64,000 bases of DNA from Anaeromonas frigoriresistens (GTDB lineage Bacteria > Bacillota > Clostridia > Tissierellales > SIT17): contig NZ_WSFT01000040.1 in the NCBI RefSeq assembly GCF_016820655.1, positions 62,001 through 126,000 on the forward strand, written 5' to 3'. The position numbers and the translations under genes are program-made. Shown here one piece after another: positions 4,475 through 58,438 of the stretch. Each line of letters begins with the position of its first letter. Within the stretch, counting starts at the first letter, position 1. The notes under the pieces are model-generated. The model was not told the origin of the DNA. It saw only the letters and a list, made by a program, of their open reading frames with translations, and made no database searches.

Positions 4475-5224
4475 ATGACTAAAGAATACATATTAGAAGG
4501 TAAATTATCAATAGAAGCAGCAATTAAAGGAAAGAGTAGAAGGATTAGTAGAGTATATATAGATAAAGGTAAAAAAGGTAGGGATATCAAAAGTTTTGAG
4601 AGCATGATTAATAAAACAGGAATAAAGATTAAGAAAGTAGATAGACATTTAATTGATGAAATGACTCAAGGTAAGACCCATGGGGGAATTATAGCTAAGG
4701 CTGGAGATAAAAGGTTTGTTTCTCTAGAGGAGCTAATAAAAGACAAGAAAAATCCTTTTATAGTTATGTTAGATGGGATAGAGGATCCATATAATTTTGG
4801 ATATGCAGTTAGATCCCTTTATTTAGCAGGTGTAGATGGAGTAGTAGTAAATCCAAGAAACTGGATGGAAGCCACCTCTGTTGTAGCCAAGGCTTCTGCG
4901 GGAACTACCGAGTTGATGCCCATGGCAGTAGCAAATGATATTGAAGAGGCCTCTAACTTTTTCAAAGATAAGGGAATGACTTTAGCCTGTACATCTAATA
5001 GGAATTCAATATCTTTATATGAAGCAGATCTTAATGTACCAATGTTTTTACTAATAGGAGGAGAAAAAAGAGGAATTACTAGATCATTTTTAGAAAAGGC
5101 AGATACTATCATACAGATACCTTACGGAAGAAATCATGGTATTTCTTTAGCCGCTACTTCTGCTACATCAGTAATAGCATTTGAAATGATGAGGCAAAAA
5201 AATATCACAAAAAGTAATATTTAG
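4475..5224 (+). CDS. SpoU/TrmH family RNA 2'-O-methyltransferase
   Basis: The 249-residue product is a SPOUT-fold methyltransferase that likely 2'-O-methylates rRNA or tRNA with SAM. An N-terminal substrate-binding domain (about 1-85) has the GK-THGGIIA segment. The catalytic domain shows motif 1 (DGIEDPYNFGYAVRSLYLAG, with the key N and R) and motif 2 (LLIGGEKRGI). The C-terminal knot motif is unusual: RNHGISLAATSAT replaces the usual SLNVS-x-A. A TATAAT at 4440-4445 and an AGGAGG site precede the gene, which diverges from the ger operon. The exact RNA target is not evident. Confidence 0.88.
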   Translation: MTKEYILEGKLSIEAAIKGKSRRISRVYIDKGKKGRDIKSFESMINKTGIKIKKVDRHLIDEMTQGKTHGGIIAKAGDKRFVSLEELIKDKKNPFIVMLDGIEDPYNFGYAVRSLYLAGVDGVVVNPRNWMEATSVVAKASAGTTELMPMAVANDIEEASNFFKDKGMTLACTSNRNSISLYEADLNVPMFLLIGGEKRGITRSFLEKADTIIQIPYGRNHGISLAATSATSVIAFEMMRQKNITKSNI

Positions 5225-6833: not shown

Positions 6834-7021
6834 TGATACATCTCCTTTAGATAAAATTTTCAAATAATATTAGCATATATTATGTATTATACTCTTTCTG
6901 TACTAATTGTAAAAGGGGATATTTATATTTAAATGATAAATTAATACTTCTATAAAGGAATAAAGAGTGGGTATATATTAAACTATAGAATAATTACTAA
7001 AGATAAAAATATAGATAGTAA

Positions 7022-8611
7022 ATGGGTGGTGGAATATTGAAAGATAAAAAGATACTTATTGTATTTTCATTGATTACATTAGCTCTTATACTTTCATTGA
7101 CATTAATAGATCAAGATAAGGGAGATATAAGTAAAGGAACAGATAAACAAACTAAAGATATATCAGAAGAAGACAGAGCACATGAAGATGAAAAAACAGG
7201 AAAAGGAAGTAAAGGTGAGAAAGATTATAGTTCAGATAGTATGGATAATATTTATTTAGAAAAGGAAGGAGACAGTATATATTTAAAATCCTCATCTAAT
7301 AACATAAATTCTATAACATCTTTGGAATGGTTTGATAAAGAGACAATAGCGTTTAATTTTACCTACCAAGAAAAAGGGGAAAGTAAAAATAGTATTTATG
7401 AATATAAAACTTCCCAGAATAAAGTAGATATAAAATTTAATATAGAAGGTATGATATGGGAATGGAAAAGAGTAAATAAAAATGCAATAATATATTCAAA
7501 TGATGGATTTAACGGATTGTATTATATGAATAATAATGGAGATGTTGAAAAAATATCAGAAAGACAAGAATGGTACCATATTTCTCCCGATGGAAATAAA
7601 GTAATTGTAAATGGTATACCTGCAAAATCAGATAAAAGTGAAAATGAACGCTTCATTTATAATATAGATAAAAAACATTTACAAAAAGCTAACTATATTC
7701 CAGACATTGATTATGTCTTCTCTTATATAGCAGCTACTTGGAGCCCTGACTCTACACATATAGTTTCACAGATACCTAATGTTAATAATCAAATAAATAT
7801 TATTGATATTAATAAAGGTATTGAAAAAGAAATAAAAATGGATGACACTATCCTTACTAGTCCTATATGGTCTAATGATGGAGAAAAATTAGCATTTTTA
7901 ATTCAATCTAAAGACTATGAAGAGTATATATTTGATAGTATAGAAACGAATTATTATTTATCAGATAAAATAGGAATATATGATACTAAAACCAAGAAGA
8001 TAAAAGTAATAAACTTTAAAAAAAATCTCACTACTTCGGAAATATATTGGTCTGAAGATAATAAGGGAATAATAATACAAACTGCAAAAATAAAAGATAT
8101 ACAAAAAAATCTTATATCTCCCACTGAAAATATAAAGGGAGAGGTTCAGTACATTAATATTGAGACAGAAGATAACATGATAGTGTTAGAAGACATTGTG
8201 GATTTAAGTGAAGGATATCCTAGTCATAAAATAACCCCAATAGAATTATTTGAAAATAATATGTTTATGTTTAGGGATGGAGATAAAGATATAAAAAGTA
8301 TAAGTATTATAGATTTAGATACAGAAAAGACAATAAATGAAGATATAGGATACTTATATGACTATTCTAGACAAGAAGAAAATATTTTTCTTATTTCCGA
8401 TGAAGGCATATTTACTATTGATACGGATTTTAAGGTTAATAATATTATGAACTTTAAATCCTACTATGGAGAAGATATTTTAAATGTAGAAGTGAGAATA
8501 TCTCCTAATCATGAAAAAATACTTCTTTATGCACAATATAATGAAGGTTCTTCTAATAAACCTTTTATAGAGGTAAGAAATATTACCCCTTTTAATAGGC
8601 CAGCTAATTAG
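7022..8611 (+). CDS. extracytoplasmic TolB-like beta-propeller protein
   Basis: The 529-residue product has an uncleaved N-terminal membrane anchor (about residues 8-28), a charged Lys/Glu/Asp/Ser linker to about residue 75, and then repeated propeller blades. Blade motifs recur as HISPDGNKVIV, TWSPDSTHIVS, PIWSNDGEKLAF, YWSEDNKGIII and ISPNHEKILLY, the PD40/TolB-type pattern. It is probably an outward-facing binding or scaffold protein; no enzymatic motif is seen. The ribosome site is weak at the ATG; a TTG at 7037 behind GGTGGTG is an equally good start. The transcript ends at its own terminator. Confidence 0.7.
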   Translation: MGGGILKDKKILIVFSLITLALILSLTLIDQDKGDISKGTDKQTKDISEEDRAHEDEKTGKGSKGEKDYSSDSMDNIYLEKEGDSIYLKSSSNNINSITSLEWFDKETIAFNFTYQEKGESKNSIYEYKTSQNKVDIKFNIEGMIWEWKRVNKNAIIYSNDGFNGLYYMNNNGDVEKISERQEWYHISPDGNKVIVNGIPAKSDKSENERFIYNIDKKHLQKANYIPDIDYVFSYIAATWSPDSTHIVSQIPNVNNQINIIDINKGIEKEIKMDDTILTSPIWSNDGEKLAFLIQSKDYEEYIFDSIETNYYLSDKIGIYDTKTKKIKVINFKKNLTTSEIYWSEDNKGIIIQTAKIKDIQKNLISPTENIKGEVQYINIETEDNMIVLEDIVDLSEGYPSHKITPIELFENNMFMFRDGDKDIKSISIIDLDTEKTINEDIGYLYDYSRQEENIFLISDEGIFTIDTDFKVNNIMNFKSYYGEDILNVEVRISPNHEKILLYAQYNEGSSNKPFIEVRNITPFNRPAN

Positions 8612-29222: not shown

Positions 29223-29250
29223 AAGAACTGGAGTAATCCAGTTCTTTTTT
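29221..29250. terminator. terminator of the peptide transporter operon
   Basis: The stem AAAAGAACTGGA / TCCAGTTCTTTT with a GTAA loop and T run separates convergent genes. Confidence 0.85.
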
Positions 29251-29686
29251 AGCAACTAAAGAAGTCTATCCTATCTAAGTCTATTCCTGTATATACCCAT
29301 CTATTAAAGCGTCTTACCCATCTATATCCAGCAATACTATTTCTACCTAGGAATACAGGATAAAACCAGAATCTTCTTCCATTATCTAAGCGTACTCTAG
29401 TCATTCTATATAAACAACGTCTTATGGAACCAGGATCTACCCGATAAGGTGAAAAATCCGATTCAAAATCTGGGCCAAAAGGTGGTGGAGGTCCAGCGGG
29501 GGGGCCATCTGGGCCTCTTCCAGGTGGTCCTGGAGGTCCATCAGGACGTCTTCCTGGAGATCTGCCAGGGCCAGGACCAAAAGGTCTATCATCATCAAAG
29601 GGACCATCTGGTCTTGGTCCAAAAAATCCATCAGGACCAAAGAATCCATCTGGGGAAAATTCTTGCATATATCTAAAATCATCCAT
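29249..29686 (-). CDS. Gly/Pro-rich protein with conserved C-terminal domain
   Basis: The 145-residue protein starts behind AAAGGAGTATATTA. Residues about 12-80 are collagen-like but irregular (PDGFFGP repeats, then GPPGPPGRGPDGPP). The C-terminal ~60 residues form a compact aromatic and basic domain (CLYRMTRVRLDNGRRFWFYPVFLGRNSIAGYRWVRR... and final FFSC) that looks conserved rather than low complexity. There is no signal peptide. A spore-surface or matrix role is possible but unproven. Its upstream region faces the Fur boxes about 100 bases away. Confidence 0.7.
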   Translation of the reverse strand: MDDFRYMQEFSPDGFFGPDGFFGPRPDGPFDDDRPFGPGPGRSPGRRPDGPPGPPGRGPDGPPAGPPPPFGPDFESDFSPYRVDPGSIRRCLYRMTRVRLDNGRRFWFYPVFLGRNSIAGYRWVRRFNRWVYTGIDLDRIDFFSC

Positions 29687-29786: not shown

Positions 29787-29841
29787 TTGATAATCATTCT
29801 CAATTATGCTATTATAGTTATAGAGTTGATAATGAGTCTCA
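29787..29841 (+). promoter_or_regulatory. Fur-controlled promoter with two Fur boxes
   Basis: TTGATA (29787-29792), a 17-base spacer and TATTAT (29810-29815) form a promoter. TGATAATCATTCTCA (29788-29802) covers the -35 and matches the Fur 7-1-7 inverted repeat TGATAAT-N-ATTATCA with one mismatch. TGATAATGAGTCTCA (29827-29841) lies at the start point with three mismatches in the right half. Repression by iron-loaded Fur (or a close homologue) is expected. Confidence 0.75.
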
Positions 29842-30060
29842 ATTAAAGACGAGTTACAGCTATTGACAAAGATTAATCAGCGATGTTTAAAGGTGTTGAA
29901 TAATATATTACCCCCCATTAATCAATACCTACCCATTTACGTAAATTCATAATTTACAAAATTCCATAGTAGTATTTTAAAGTATATCTTGCCGATTATA
30001 CTTAATAAACACCTCCCTGAATTAGGGAACCCCTAGGGTACGAACCTAGGGGTTTTTTTT
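29822..30060 (+). ncRNA. candidate iron-responsive small RNA (about 240 nt)
   Basis: The stretch from the Fur-controlled start point to a strong terminator has no convincing ORF. It contains C-rich, apparently unpaired segments (TTACCCCCCATTAATC, ATACCTACCCATT and AACACCTCCCTG), a GTAAATT-CAT-AATTTAC hairpin at 29941-29957, and a short CCCT/AGGG stem before the terminator. C-rich loops complementary to Shine-Dalgarno sequences under Fur control are the hallmark of iron-sparing RNAs such as FsrA. The 29687-30124 interval otherwise has no gene. A cis-acting leader for the next gene is the main alternative. Confidence 0.55.
30028..30060 (+). terminator. strong rho-independent terminator of the small RNA
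   Basis: The perfect 10-bp stem AACCCCTAGG / CCTAGGGGTT with a seven-base loop is followed by an eight-to-ten T run. It lies 65 bases before the flavoprotein start. Confidence 0.9.
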
Positions 30061-30124
30061 GTGTGAAAATTAGAATAGAATATATGTAAAGGGTAATTGA
30101 ATATTAATATAGGTAGGGGTGCTG

Positions 30125-30862
30125 ATGGGAAAAAGAGTGATAGCTATTAATAGTAGTAAGCGAAAGAAGAATACTTATGGTATATTAAAAGAGTTGAAAG
30201 AAAAGTTTAAAGAGCAGGATATTCATATAGATATTTTGAATTTATTTGAATATAATATAACCCCTTGTGTTGGGTGTGAATCTTGTGTTAGGTTTGATAA
30301 ATGTGGATTAAAGGATGATACAGAAAAGTTAATGGAAATATTAAAATCATATGACGGAGTTATACTTAGTTCTCCCGTATACATGGGCAATGTTTCTGGA
30401 ATGATGAAATTATTTATTGATAGGACTGCTAAGTGGTTTCATAGGCCAGAACTTGTAGGAAAACCTATTATGTATGTTGTAACTACAGCAGCTTCGGGAA
30501 TAAATGATACAACTAAGTATTTAAAGGGAGTATCTATTCAATGGGGTATGATGCCTACTTCAAGTATCACTAGAACAGTAAATACCATTAAGAAGGATAT
30601 AAGAAAAGAGGAATACAGTGATTTTATAAATCATTTAAAAATGCATAGAGATAACTTTAAACCTTCTCTCAATCAATTAATAATGTATCAAGTTCAAAAG
30701 GTATTGGCTATAAAAATTCATGAAATAGATAGAGTGTTTTGGACTGAAAGAGGATGGAATAATAGTATTTATTATTATGGTAAAATACCCGCCTATAAAA
30801 AAAGTGTAGCAAAGATTTTTTATAATATGCTTTATAAAAAAGTAAAAAAGGTAGAAAACTAA
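30125..30862 (+). CDS. iron-sulfur flavoprotein-like NAD(P)H:FMN reductase family
   Basis: The 245-residue flavodoxin-fold protein has an N-terminal AINSSKRKKNTYG phosphate loop and SSPVYMGNVSGMMKLFIDR around the FMN site. C48-x2-C51-x2-C54-x5-C60 is the compact cluster motif of iron-sulfur flavoproteins, so a [4Fe-4S] cluster plus FMN is likely. The C-terminal ~80 residues are a basic extension. The ATG follows GGTAGGGGTGCTG. It may be expressed by read-through from the Fur-controlled promoter. Role: probably electron transfer or reduction of small oxidants. Confidence 0.82.
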   Translation: MGKRVIAINSSKRKKNTYGILKELKEKFKEQDIHIDILNLFEYNITPCVGCESCVRFDKCGLKDDTEKLMEILKSYDGVILSSPVYMGNVSGMMKLFIDRTAKWFHRPELVGKPIMYVVTTAASGINDTTKYLKGVSIQWGMMPTSSITRTVNTIKKDIRKEEYSDFINHLKMHRDNFKPSLNQLIMYQVQKVLAIKIHEIDRVFWTERGWNNSIYYYGKIPAYKKSVAKIFYNMLYKKVKKVEN

Positions 30863-30882
30863 TTTAATAGAGAGGTGAAAAT

Positions 30883-32136
30883 ATGGATGAATATAATAGA
30901 AATACATTAGAAAAGATAAAAGCATTAAAACCTTTGTTTTGGGGAAACCCAAATAAACTTATGTTTGAAAATATGGCTACAAAATTAGATATAAAATATA
31001 GCCAAATATTAGAAGCTGAAGATAGACTTAATAGATTTGCTCCTCTAATAAAAAGATTATTTCCAGAAACAGAAGATGGAATAATAGAATCTAAATTAAT
31101 AAAGGCTGATGATTTAATAAAATCCTTAGAACAGTCTTATACTATAGATATCAATGGAGATTTATATTTAAAATGTGATAACTATTTAGACATAGCTGGT
31201 TCGATTAAAGCCAGAGGTGGAATATATGAAGTTTTAAAAATAACAGAAGATATTTTACTAGATAATAATCTAATAAGTTTAGATGGAGATTATTCTAAGA
31301 TTACAGAAGGGTCATATAGAGATATTTTTTCTCAACATACTATAATAGTAGGCTCCACAGGAAATTTAGGAATGAGTATAGGTATAATGTCCACTGCTTT
31401 AGGGTTTAATGCAGAAATACATATGTCAAAGGATGCAAAAGAATGGAAGAAATCATTATTAAGAAGTAAAGGCGCAATTGTAATTGAACATAAAGATGAC
31501 TATTCAAAAGCAGTTGAAGAAGGAAGGAAGAAAGCGCTAGCTGATAAAAAAGCATTTTTTATTGATGATGAAAACTCTATAGATTTATTTTTAGGATATA
31601 GTGTAGCAGCCTTGAGAGTAGAGAAACAATTAATTGATATGGGTGTTATAGTTGATAGAGAAAATCCACTACATGTATATTTACCCTGTGGGGTTGGAGG
31701 AGCTCCTGGAGGGATAGCATTAGGACTTAAATACGTATTCAAGGATAATGTGTACTGTTACTTTGTAGAGCCTACCCATGCTCCTTGTATGCTACTTAGT
31801 TTAGTAACAGGGGATCATGAAAAGGTAAAAATATCTGATTATAGTATAGATAATGTAACTGAAGCTGATGGATTAGCTGTAGGTTCCCCATCAGGTTTAG
31901 TATCAAGAATAGCTGACTTCTTAATTGATGGTATATATACAATAGAGGATGAAGAGTTATTTAAGTTATTAAGCATATTGAAGGATTCAGAAGATATAAA
32001 GGCAGAGCCATCTGCTGTATCGAGTTTGAAAGGACCTATTATCAATAATAAGAAAGGAAGTCATATCATGTGGCTTACTGGTGGCTTATTTATTCCTGAT
32101 GATATCTACAATGAAATGTACAATAGAGGTAAATAG
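30883..32136 (+). CDS. dsdA: D-serine ammonia-lyase (D-serine dehydratase)
   Basis: The 417-residue PLP enzyme converts D-serine to pyruvate and ammonia. The PLP lysine lies in NYLDIAGSIKARGG; the phosphate-binding loop is VGSTGNLGMSIG, and the conserved LPCGVGGAPGGIALGLK and EPTHAPCMLLSLVTGDHE segments are present. Length fits DsdA. It starts 20 bases after the flavoprotein gene behind AGAGGTG, so it is probably in the same operon. It may detoxify or catabolise D-serine. Confidence 0.93.
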   Translation: MDEYNRNTLEKIKALKPLFWGNPNKLMFENMATKLDIKYSQILEAEDRLNRFAPLIKRLFPETEDGIIESKLIKADDLIKSLEQSYTIDINGDLYLKCDNYLDIAGSIKARGGIYEVLKITEDILLDNNLISLDGDYSKITEGSYRDIFSQHTIIVGSTGNLGMSIGIMSTALGFNAEIHMSKDAKEWKKSLLRSKGAIVIEHKDDYSKAVEEGRKKALADKKAFFIDDENSIDLFLGYSVAALRVEKQLIDMGVIVDRENPLHVYLPCGVGGAPGGIALGLKYVFKDNVYCYFVEPTHAPCMLLSLVTGDHEKVKISDYSIDNVTEADGLAVGSPSGLVSRIADFLIDGIYTIEDEELFKLLSILKDSEDIKAEPSAVSSLKGPIINNKKGSHIMWLTGGLFIPDDIYNEMYNRGK

Positions 32137-37574: not shown

Positions 37575-37853
37575 ATGCATATTACTATAAATTTTAAAAG
37601 ATCTGGTAAAGTGGTGAAGACTTATCCTGGATATACCCTACTTCAGATAGCAAGGGCAAATAAAATACCTATACTGTCTCCCTGTGGAGGTAATGCTTTA
37701 TGTGGAGGATGTAGAGTTAAAGTACTTGAAGGAAATGACATTATGGATGTTAGTGCAGAGGAGTATAATAGACTTAGTGATGAACAAATAGGGGATGATT
37801 GGAGATTATCCTGTAGTTTTATTCCTCATGGAGATATTGTAGTGGATGCATAA
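37575..37853 (+). CDS. [2Fe-2S] plant-type ferredoxin domain protein (92 aa)
   Basis: The 92-residue ferredoxin has the cluster motif C-x5-C-x2-C (SPCGGNALCGGCRVKVLEG) and a fourth Cys in WRLSCSF. It is the fold of an adrenodoxin/plant-type [2Fe-2S] ferredoxin, similar to the N-terminal domain of RACo-like corrinoid activators or the standalone ferredoxins of anaerobes. AAAGGGTG precedes the ATG. It is monocistronic as far as can be seen; partner unknown. Confidence 0.9.
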   Translation: MHITINFKRSGKVVKTYPGYTLLQIARANKIPILSPCGGNALCGGCRVKVLEGNDIMDVSAEEYNRLSDEQIGDDWRLSCSFIPHGDIVVDA

Positions 37854-58185: not shown

Positions 58186-58438
58186 AAATATTCCCTCCCA
58201 ATTTATTATCTTATTATAATTATACCAATATAAAGGATTTTTAATTGTGATTAGCATCATATTTTTAAATTTATTTAAAATATAAATTTAGTACCCTTGT
58301 ACCAATTTGATAAAATTCGATATTTTTAGCTATAAAAACTGTATTTATTGGAAGAGAATAACTTTACAATGGATTAGGTATAATATACAATATATATGAA
58401 TATATAGATGAAGGACCACAATATGAGGGGGTAATGGC

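Follow-up and report, generated by a model that had tools for sequence, protein, structure and literature searches.

A putative Fur-associated, C-rich small RNA of Anaeromonas with predicted pairing to ribosome-binding sites of iron-sulfur enzymes

According to the available text of a study on the Staphylococcus aureus RNA IsrR, iron-sparing RNAs occur in staphylococci, Bacillus, enterics, Pseudomonas, and mycobacteria (PMC9410917). IsrR, for which the accessible part of another source gives the alternative names S596 and Tsr25 (PMC11257911), is described as a translational repressor of mRNAs for iron-sulfur enzymes, and RyhB, PrrF1/2, and MrsI are described as regulating mRNAs of iron-sulfur proteins (PMC9410917, available text). 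FsrA of Bacillus subtilis is an iron-sparing RNA that requires the three helper proteins FbpA/B/C and that binds Shine-Dalgarno sequences with a C-rich motif; among the RNAs listed beside IsrR in the text available, it is the only one to use a C-rich motif on the Shine-Dalgarno site (PMC9410917). For clostridia and Tissierellia, no iron-sparing RNA was found in the open-access literature as far as its text was accessible, a small-RNA survey of Clostridium (PMC3879012) lying outside this scope, and in the accessible text of a study on fur in C. difficile the term "small RNA" occurs in the reference list only (PMC6311696).

Here, we describe a locus in a stretch of 64,000 nucleotides (the window) from Anaeromonas frigoriresistens, for which a Fur-repressed, C-rich iron-sparing RNA had been predicted from the sequence. 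Gene anatomy, conservation, and pairing statistics are read from the sequences. It is very probable that the locus represents a genuine small RNA gene associated with Fur. It is also probable, with clearly less certainty, that the RNA spares iron by pairing of a C-rich loop with ribosome sites of iron-sulfur enzymes.

Promoter, Fur boxes, and RNA architecture

The locus begins with a sigma-A-type promoter (29787..29815, plus strand) with the hexamers TTGATA and TATTAT at a spacing of 17 bases and an extended TG motif. The hexamers are the same in G001 and G003, two other genomes of the genus. As a class, promoter-like matches are not clearly more frequent than in shuffled sequences (22 versus 17.5 expected, sd 3.8). 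The -35 element is overlapped by Fur box 1 TGATAATCATTCTCA (29788..29802), which has one mismatch to TGATAATNATTATCA and is the perfect consensus TGATAATAATTATCA at the orthologous loci of G001 and G003. A Fur-like dyad, box 2 TGATAATGAGTCTCA (29827..29841), follows directly past the transcript start as placed from the -10 element. Both boxes had been predicted at these positions and are present, box 2 with two mismatches in the window. Because box 2 has three mismatches in G001 and G003 (by eye), it is presumably the weaker Fur site; its RNA is able to fold into a 5' hairpin.

Fur boxes with up to two mismatches are not in excess in the window genome (153 versus 190 for a reversed-pattern control), and at up to one mismatch there is no clear excess in G001, G002, and G003 (16, 16, and 10 versus 13, 11, and 16 for the control). 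As these genome-wide counts are not clearly above those of the control, the case for the Fur box rests on position and conservation and not on frequency. The window genome (G000, a 3.2-Mb assembly) has four Fur-family matches and 20 sites with at most one mismatch to the Fur consensus. Genes were checked at 15 of these sites, one being the RNA locus itself. Half of the other 14 (seven sites) are located upstream of iron or redox genes, namely FeoA (two sites), superoxide dismutase, Dps, an SfuA/ThiB-like substrate-binding protein, NADH oxidase, and 2-oxoacid oxidoreductase, where FeoA and 2-oxoacid oxidoreductase score above curated cut-offs and the other names have strong E-values below the NCBIfam cut-offs. 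The remaining seven are at other genes or within genes. The one-mismatch box upstream of a 2-oxoacid:acceptor oxidoreductase gene (G000:C10:518480) suggests that oxoacid metabolism is also under transcriptional iron control.

The putative non-coding transcript (29822..30058, plus strand; start from the -10 element) has a length of about 237 nt. Its fold energy is 4.9 sd below that of shuffled sequences, that of the G001 homolog 4.4 sd below, and hairpins H1, H2, and H3 as well as the terminator are common to all three species. On folding, H1 (29891..29930, plus strand) presents C-rich region 1 AUUACCCCCC (29907..29916) in its apical loop, with an unpaired probability of 1.0 at each base in three of three species. 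The unpaired loop AUUACCCCC is complementary to GGGGGUAAU-type ribosome sites, for which region 1 is the proposed seed. C-rich region 2 ACCUACCC (29927..29934, plus strand) has its first half in the H1 stem and its ACCC half free. It is followed by H2 (29941..29957, plus strand), which is invariant across the three species, by H3 (AAGUAUAUCUUGCCGAUUAUACUU, 29979..30004, plus strand), and by C-rich region 3 CACCUCCCU (30010..30018, plus strand), which is anti-SD-like. In the window species, most of region 3 is paired; its counterpart AACCUCCC in G001 and G003 is unpaired with a probability of about 0.5-0.9 and thus mostly free there. Accordingly, the predicted lack of structure in the C-rich patches holds completely for region 1 and by half for region 2, but not for region 3 of the window species.

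The RNA ends with an intrinsic terminator, AACCCCTAGG-GTACGAA-CCTAGGGGTT followed by T8 (30028..30060, plus strand). Its stem of 10 base pairs is fully paired on folding, as anticipated from the sequence, yet the terminator is absent from the list of a simple scanner. One of the stem pairs is G-C in the window species and A-U in both relatives. RNAalifold reported three pairs changed on both sides; with three sequences being too few, the terminator pair 216-224 is the only convincing one.

Conservation and distribution of the RNA

In a BLAST search of 60 genomes including the window's own, nearly full-length copies of the RNA were found in two of the three other genomes of the genus, G001 (77% identity, E 1.6e-53) and G003 (76%, E 2.7e-52). 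The remaining matches, among those listed, are pieces of 17-58 bases with a best E of 6.7e-4. Four short matches in other genera (L005, L010, L022, L024) were set aside by eye; three of them resemble protein-coding sequence of a single family, and the match in L024 is on the opposite strand ahead of a gene start. A covariance model of the RNA core, run with strict filters that may miss weak copies, recovered the copies of the window species, G001, and G003 from among 249 genomes of this order and had no match in the other 246. No Rfam family matched at the gathering score. Up to E = 10, six matches were obtained, all under the cut-off, the best being NsiR1 with 26.5 bits versus 39 needed at 30006-30060, where it coincides with the terminator. 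To our knowledge, none of these six families is an iron RNA. Because there is no Rfam match and 246 of the 249 genomes are without a match, the RNA seems to be restricted to the genus. The DNA pattern of the RNA had no match in a genome contig collection, from which near relatives are perhaps absent.

The identity between the window and G001 was counted along the locus. In 30-column blocks from 29680, the four upstream blocks have 10, 12, 12, and 19 identical columns, and the promoter with the Fur boxes has 24 and 27. The next two blocks have 2 and 21; 28 bases of the window are missing here in G001 and G003. Conservation reaches 25, 28, and 27 columns over 29909-29998, with 55 of 60 columns kept over 29939-29998, and after 17 and 23 (terminator) it drops past the terminator (19, 14, and 6 of 21). 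In G001 and G003, the RNA is located directly upstream of lemA. In the window, it is separated from lemA by genes for an FMN reductase-fold protein and D-serine ammonia-lyase (30119-32136), which are absent there in G001 and G003. A protein of 145 residues rich in Pro, Gly, and Arg is encoded divergently from the RNA (29249-29686, minus strand) and has no Pfam or NCBIfam match.

In G002, the third other genome of the genus, neither BLAST nor the covariance model detected a copy of the RNA. Since lemA has no match in G002 either, the RNA locus has likely been deleted or is unassembled. No equivalent of the RNA was found in G002 at seven places with Fur sites (ORFs read at all seven, sequence at four), which comprise, out of 16 sites, five loci and two stretches covering three more. 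The nearest named relative by lemA is Sporosalibacterium (order Tissierellales, class Tissierellia; 74%), the lemA neighbourhood of which has no Fur-like site with up to two mismatches. The best covariance model matches in this neighbourhood, with 19.2 bits (E 0.013, 6985-7068) and 14.3 bits (663-744), were rejected; they skip 35-43 model positions and are not upstream of lemA. A third match (10.6 bits, E 0.62, 4798-4828) about 110 bases before lemA covers H3 only and is too weak to count.

Predicted targets of the C-rich loop

The whole RNA was scored against ribosome-site regions (-30 to +15) for ungapped pairing and accessibility with a simplified energy model of our own; C-rich regions 2 and 3 were scored only within the whole RNA. 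A motif-defined set of iron-sulfur genes in random samples showed no difference (7 of 438 genes in G000, 5 of 352 in G001). Genes with the ferredoxin motif C..C..C...C, found via Pfam Fer4_7, paired better than others. In G000, this applied to 26 Fer4 genes versus 200 others (p = 0.0019), and none of 120 shuffled RNAs was as good; in G001, it applied to 24 versus 200 (p = 0.0026), although 30 of the 120 shuffled RNAs there equalled the real one. Eight-base matches to loop 1 were not significantly enriched in one comparison (2/26 versus 11/437, p = 0.16) and marginally in the other (2/24 versus 4/349, p = 0.05).

Conserved pairing was analyzed with 125 ortholog pairs of G000 and G001, of which 76 came from random stretches of both genomes and 15 have the Fer4 motif, a share that is not natural because Fer4 genes were fetched deliberately. 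The 15 Fer4 pairs showed stronger conserved pairing than the other 110 (p = 0.0012). With 150 column and 150 block shuffles, no shuffle reached their mean difference; the p-value was reached in 1 column shuffle and 0 block shuffles, and the second-best iron-sulfur score in 0 and 1, respectively. Of the 125 pairs, those for pyruvate:ferredoxin oxidoreductase and for a DUF362 protein rank first and second; they score -10.7 and -10.3 kcal/mol in the weaker genome, where the best other pair has -7.3 kcal/mol. The two top ranks also both went to iron-sulfur proteins in 6 column and 12 block shuffles, out of 150 each. The Fer4 ortholog pairs agree with the expected preference for iron-sulfur mRNAs; the 27 radical-SAM genes of G000 do not, their pairing being a little weaker than that of the background (one-sided p = 0.97).

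The best-supported predicted targets, pyruvate:ferredoxin oxidoreductase and the DUF362/4Fe-4S protein, are encoded outside the window. Across G000, G001, and G003, the predicted pairing at these two sites ranges from -10.3 to -12.8 kcal/mol. The DUF362/ferredoxin protein carries two 4Fe-4S motifs. At pyruvate:ferredoxin oxidoreductase, GGGGGUAAU is retained even though its spacing from the start codon changes by two bases. Of the two genes for pyruvate:ferredoxin oxidoreductase in the window genome, one has a GGGGGUAAU ribosome site and the other a plain GGAGGU. In G002, the 9-mer GGGGGUAAU is retained at pyruvate:ferredoxin oxidoreductase and nrdD; a loss or an assembly gap is likely in this genome, and its GGGGGUAAU word counts neither for nor against the pairing. 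The identity to G000 is 88% in G002 versus 85% in G001 for pyruvate:ferredoxin oxidoreductase and 85% versus 83% for the DUF362 protein; for NrdD, it is 91% in G002 and 92% in G003.

Within the window, matching G-rich ribosome sites had been proposed for three genes. This agrees with the nrdD ribosome-binding region, where the site GGGGGUAAUG (58427..58436, plus strand) is predicted to pair with C-rich loop 1 (-12.8 kcal/mol). The 9-mer GGGGGUAAU is also found at nrdD in G003 and G002; in G001, NrdD itself gave only a weak, partial match. The activase pairs weakly (-6.6). The proposed ferredoxin site did not hold for the 2Fe-2S ferredoxin at 37575, which has AAAGGGTG in place of the proposed AAGGAGG, scores -4.9, and does not pair with a C-rich patch; this is the sole 2Fe-2S ferredoxin of the window that was examined, and the original prediction may have meant another gene.

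Strong predicted partners also occur outside iron proteins. In the sample of the window species, the strongest partner is a TPR/peptidase-MA-like protein (-16.6), followed by an AI-2E transporter (-15.5), and a spo0A-like gene (by eye) carries GGGGGUAAU. One stretch of 20 kb (G000:C38:40000-59999) contains four genes with strong predicted loop-1 pairing; its partners include a 16-base match at the TPR/peptidase-MA-like protein and purine-synthesis-like genes (by eye). Moreover, an 8-base match to the loop-1 flank, GGUAAUAU, is carried by a rubrerythrin-domain gene (G000, L115:6232-6741) and by an ScdA/hemerythrin-type gene (G001, L135:14101-14802). Both of these families are iron-binding.

Proposed function and relation to known RNAs

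From these features, we infer transcription, Fur binding, translational repression, and a physiological role as follows. The gene would encode a small RNA acting in trans. With ample iron, iron-loaded Fur would occupy the promoter at its conserved box and repress it; under iron scarcity, the gene would yield an RNA of about 205-240 nt. Its hairpin H1 would present the loop AUUACCCCC for pairing with GGGGGUAAU-like Shine-Dalgarno regions, whereby ribosome entry would be blocked. The repressed mRNAs would include those of pyruvate:ferredoxin oxidoreductase, the DUF362/ferredoxin protein, and probably the anaerobic ribonucleotide reductase NrdD, and iron would be spared. The core of the original prediction, a Fur-repressed iron-sparing RNA, thus has support from conserved regulation, architecture, and the comparative target test, and had to be revised in the details of its targets.

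The strongest competing explanation, which is rather unlikely overall, also assumes a Fur-repressed small RNA. Its C-rich loops would pair with many strong Shine-Dalgarno sites, with membrane proteins, transporters, Spo0A, and metabolism among the targets, and iron sparing would not be the main function. Such a wider role would agree with the TPR/peptidase-MA-like protein and the AI-2E transporter as strongest partners in the window species, with GGGGGUAAU at the spo0A-like gene, and with the missing enrichment of radical-SAM genes. However, the pairing of the AI-2E transporter is lost in G001 (-15.5 versus -5.7), the TPR protein is outside the best 25 pairs listed, both top-ranked conserved pairings belong to 4Fe-4S proteins, and the Fer4 set pairs better with the real RNA than with shuffled ones.

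A Fur-regulated leader or attenuator, with the terminator as a switch for the downstream gene, would explain why the RNA immediately precedes lemA in G001 and G003 and the FMN reductase gene in the window. It is improbable: the RNA is kept while the downstream gene varies by species, conservation drops beyond the terminator, the folds show no antiterminator pairing to the terminator arm, and the downstream genes of the window have their own ribosome sites. Even less credence is given to a small protein gene or a dual-function RNA. One frame, starting with GTG/TTG at about 29893-29896 and encoding LNN(I/K)LPP, is indeed common at its start to three species, but beyond the seventh residue it is shifted by a net indel of one base, lengths and ends differ, there is no ATG, and the best-conserved part of the RNA is largely outside this frame. 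Judged by the frameshift in its lone shared short frame, the RNA is non-coding, in agreement with the predicted absence of a credible ORF from some 240 bases: over about 237 bases, no frame is conserved at the protein level. Equally far-fetched is a chance assembly of promoter-, Fur-, and terminator-like sequences in an A+T-rich intergenic region. Fur-box counts not clearly above the control and the commonness of promoter-like sites would fit such an origin, but the orthologs of two species keep the -35 and -10 elements, the Fur box, which is perfect there, and a terminator with a G-C/A-U exchange, and the 55 columns kept downstream of H1 point in the same direction.

The iron-sparing reading can be extended, tentatively and with odds somewhat against it, to a genus-specific, independently evolved low-iron RNA whose apical loop reads GGGGGUAAU, a ribosome-site word dedicated to iron enzymes such as pyruvate:ferredoxin oxidoreductase and NrdD. 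Under iron scarcity, it would thereby throttle the central step from pyruvate to ferredoxin in an anaerobe. Anaerobes rely heavily on ferredoxin enzymes; therefore, a low-iron RNA acting on pyruvate:ferredoxin oxidoreductase would, if this is true, tie iron supply directly to central carbon flow.

As far as the available text of PMC9410917 describes it, IsrR resembles the RNA presented here in having Fur boxes at its promoter, two of which were tested in IsrR, and an intrinsic terminator whose sequence is poorly conserved. Likewise, it has three C-rich regions, the first in the H1 loop and the second beside a hairpin; unlike in IsrR, region 3 lies here ahead of the terminator and not within a hairpin loop. 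The translational repression of mRNAs for iron-sulfur enzymes described for IsrR is proposed here from the sequence. Further differences are the host lineage and the predicted main target, pyruvate:ferredoxin oxidoreductase. With FsrA, the RNA would share iron sparing through a C-rich motif directed at Shine-Dalgarno sequences, and it has no Rfam match that would connect it with RyhB, PrrF1/2, or MrsI. Its separation from IsrR and FsrA is based on the Rfam scan and on descriptions. In function, the RNA appears to be IsrR/FsrA-like while having no recognisable relationship to known iron-saving RNAs and would, if this is true, represent a further case of the same solution without a recognisable common sequence.
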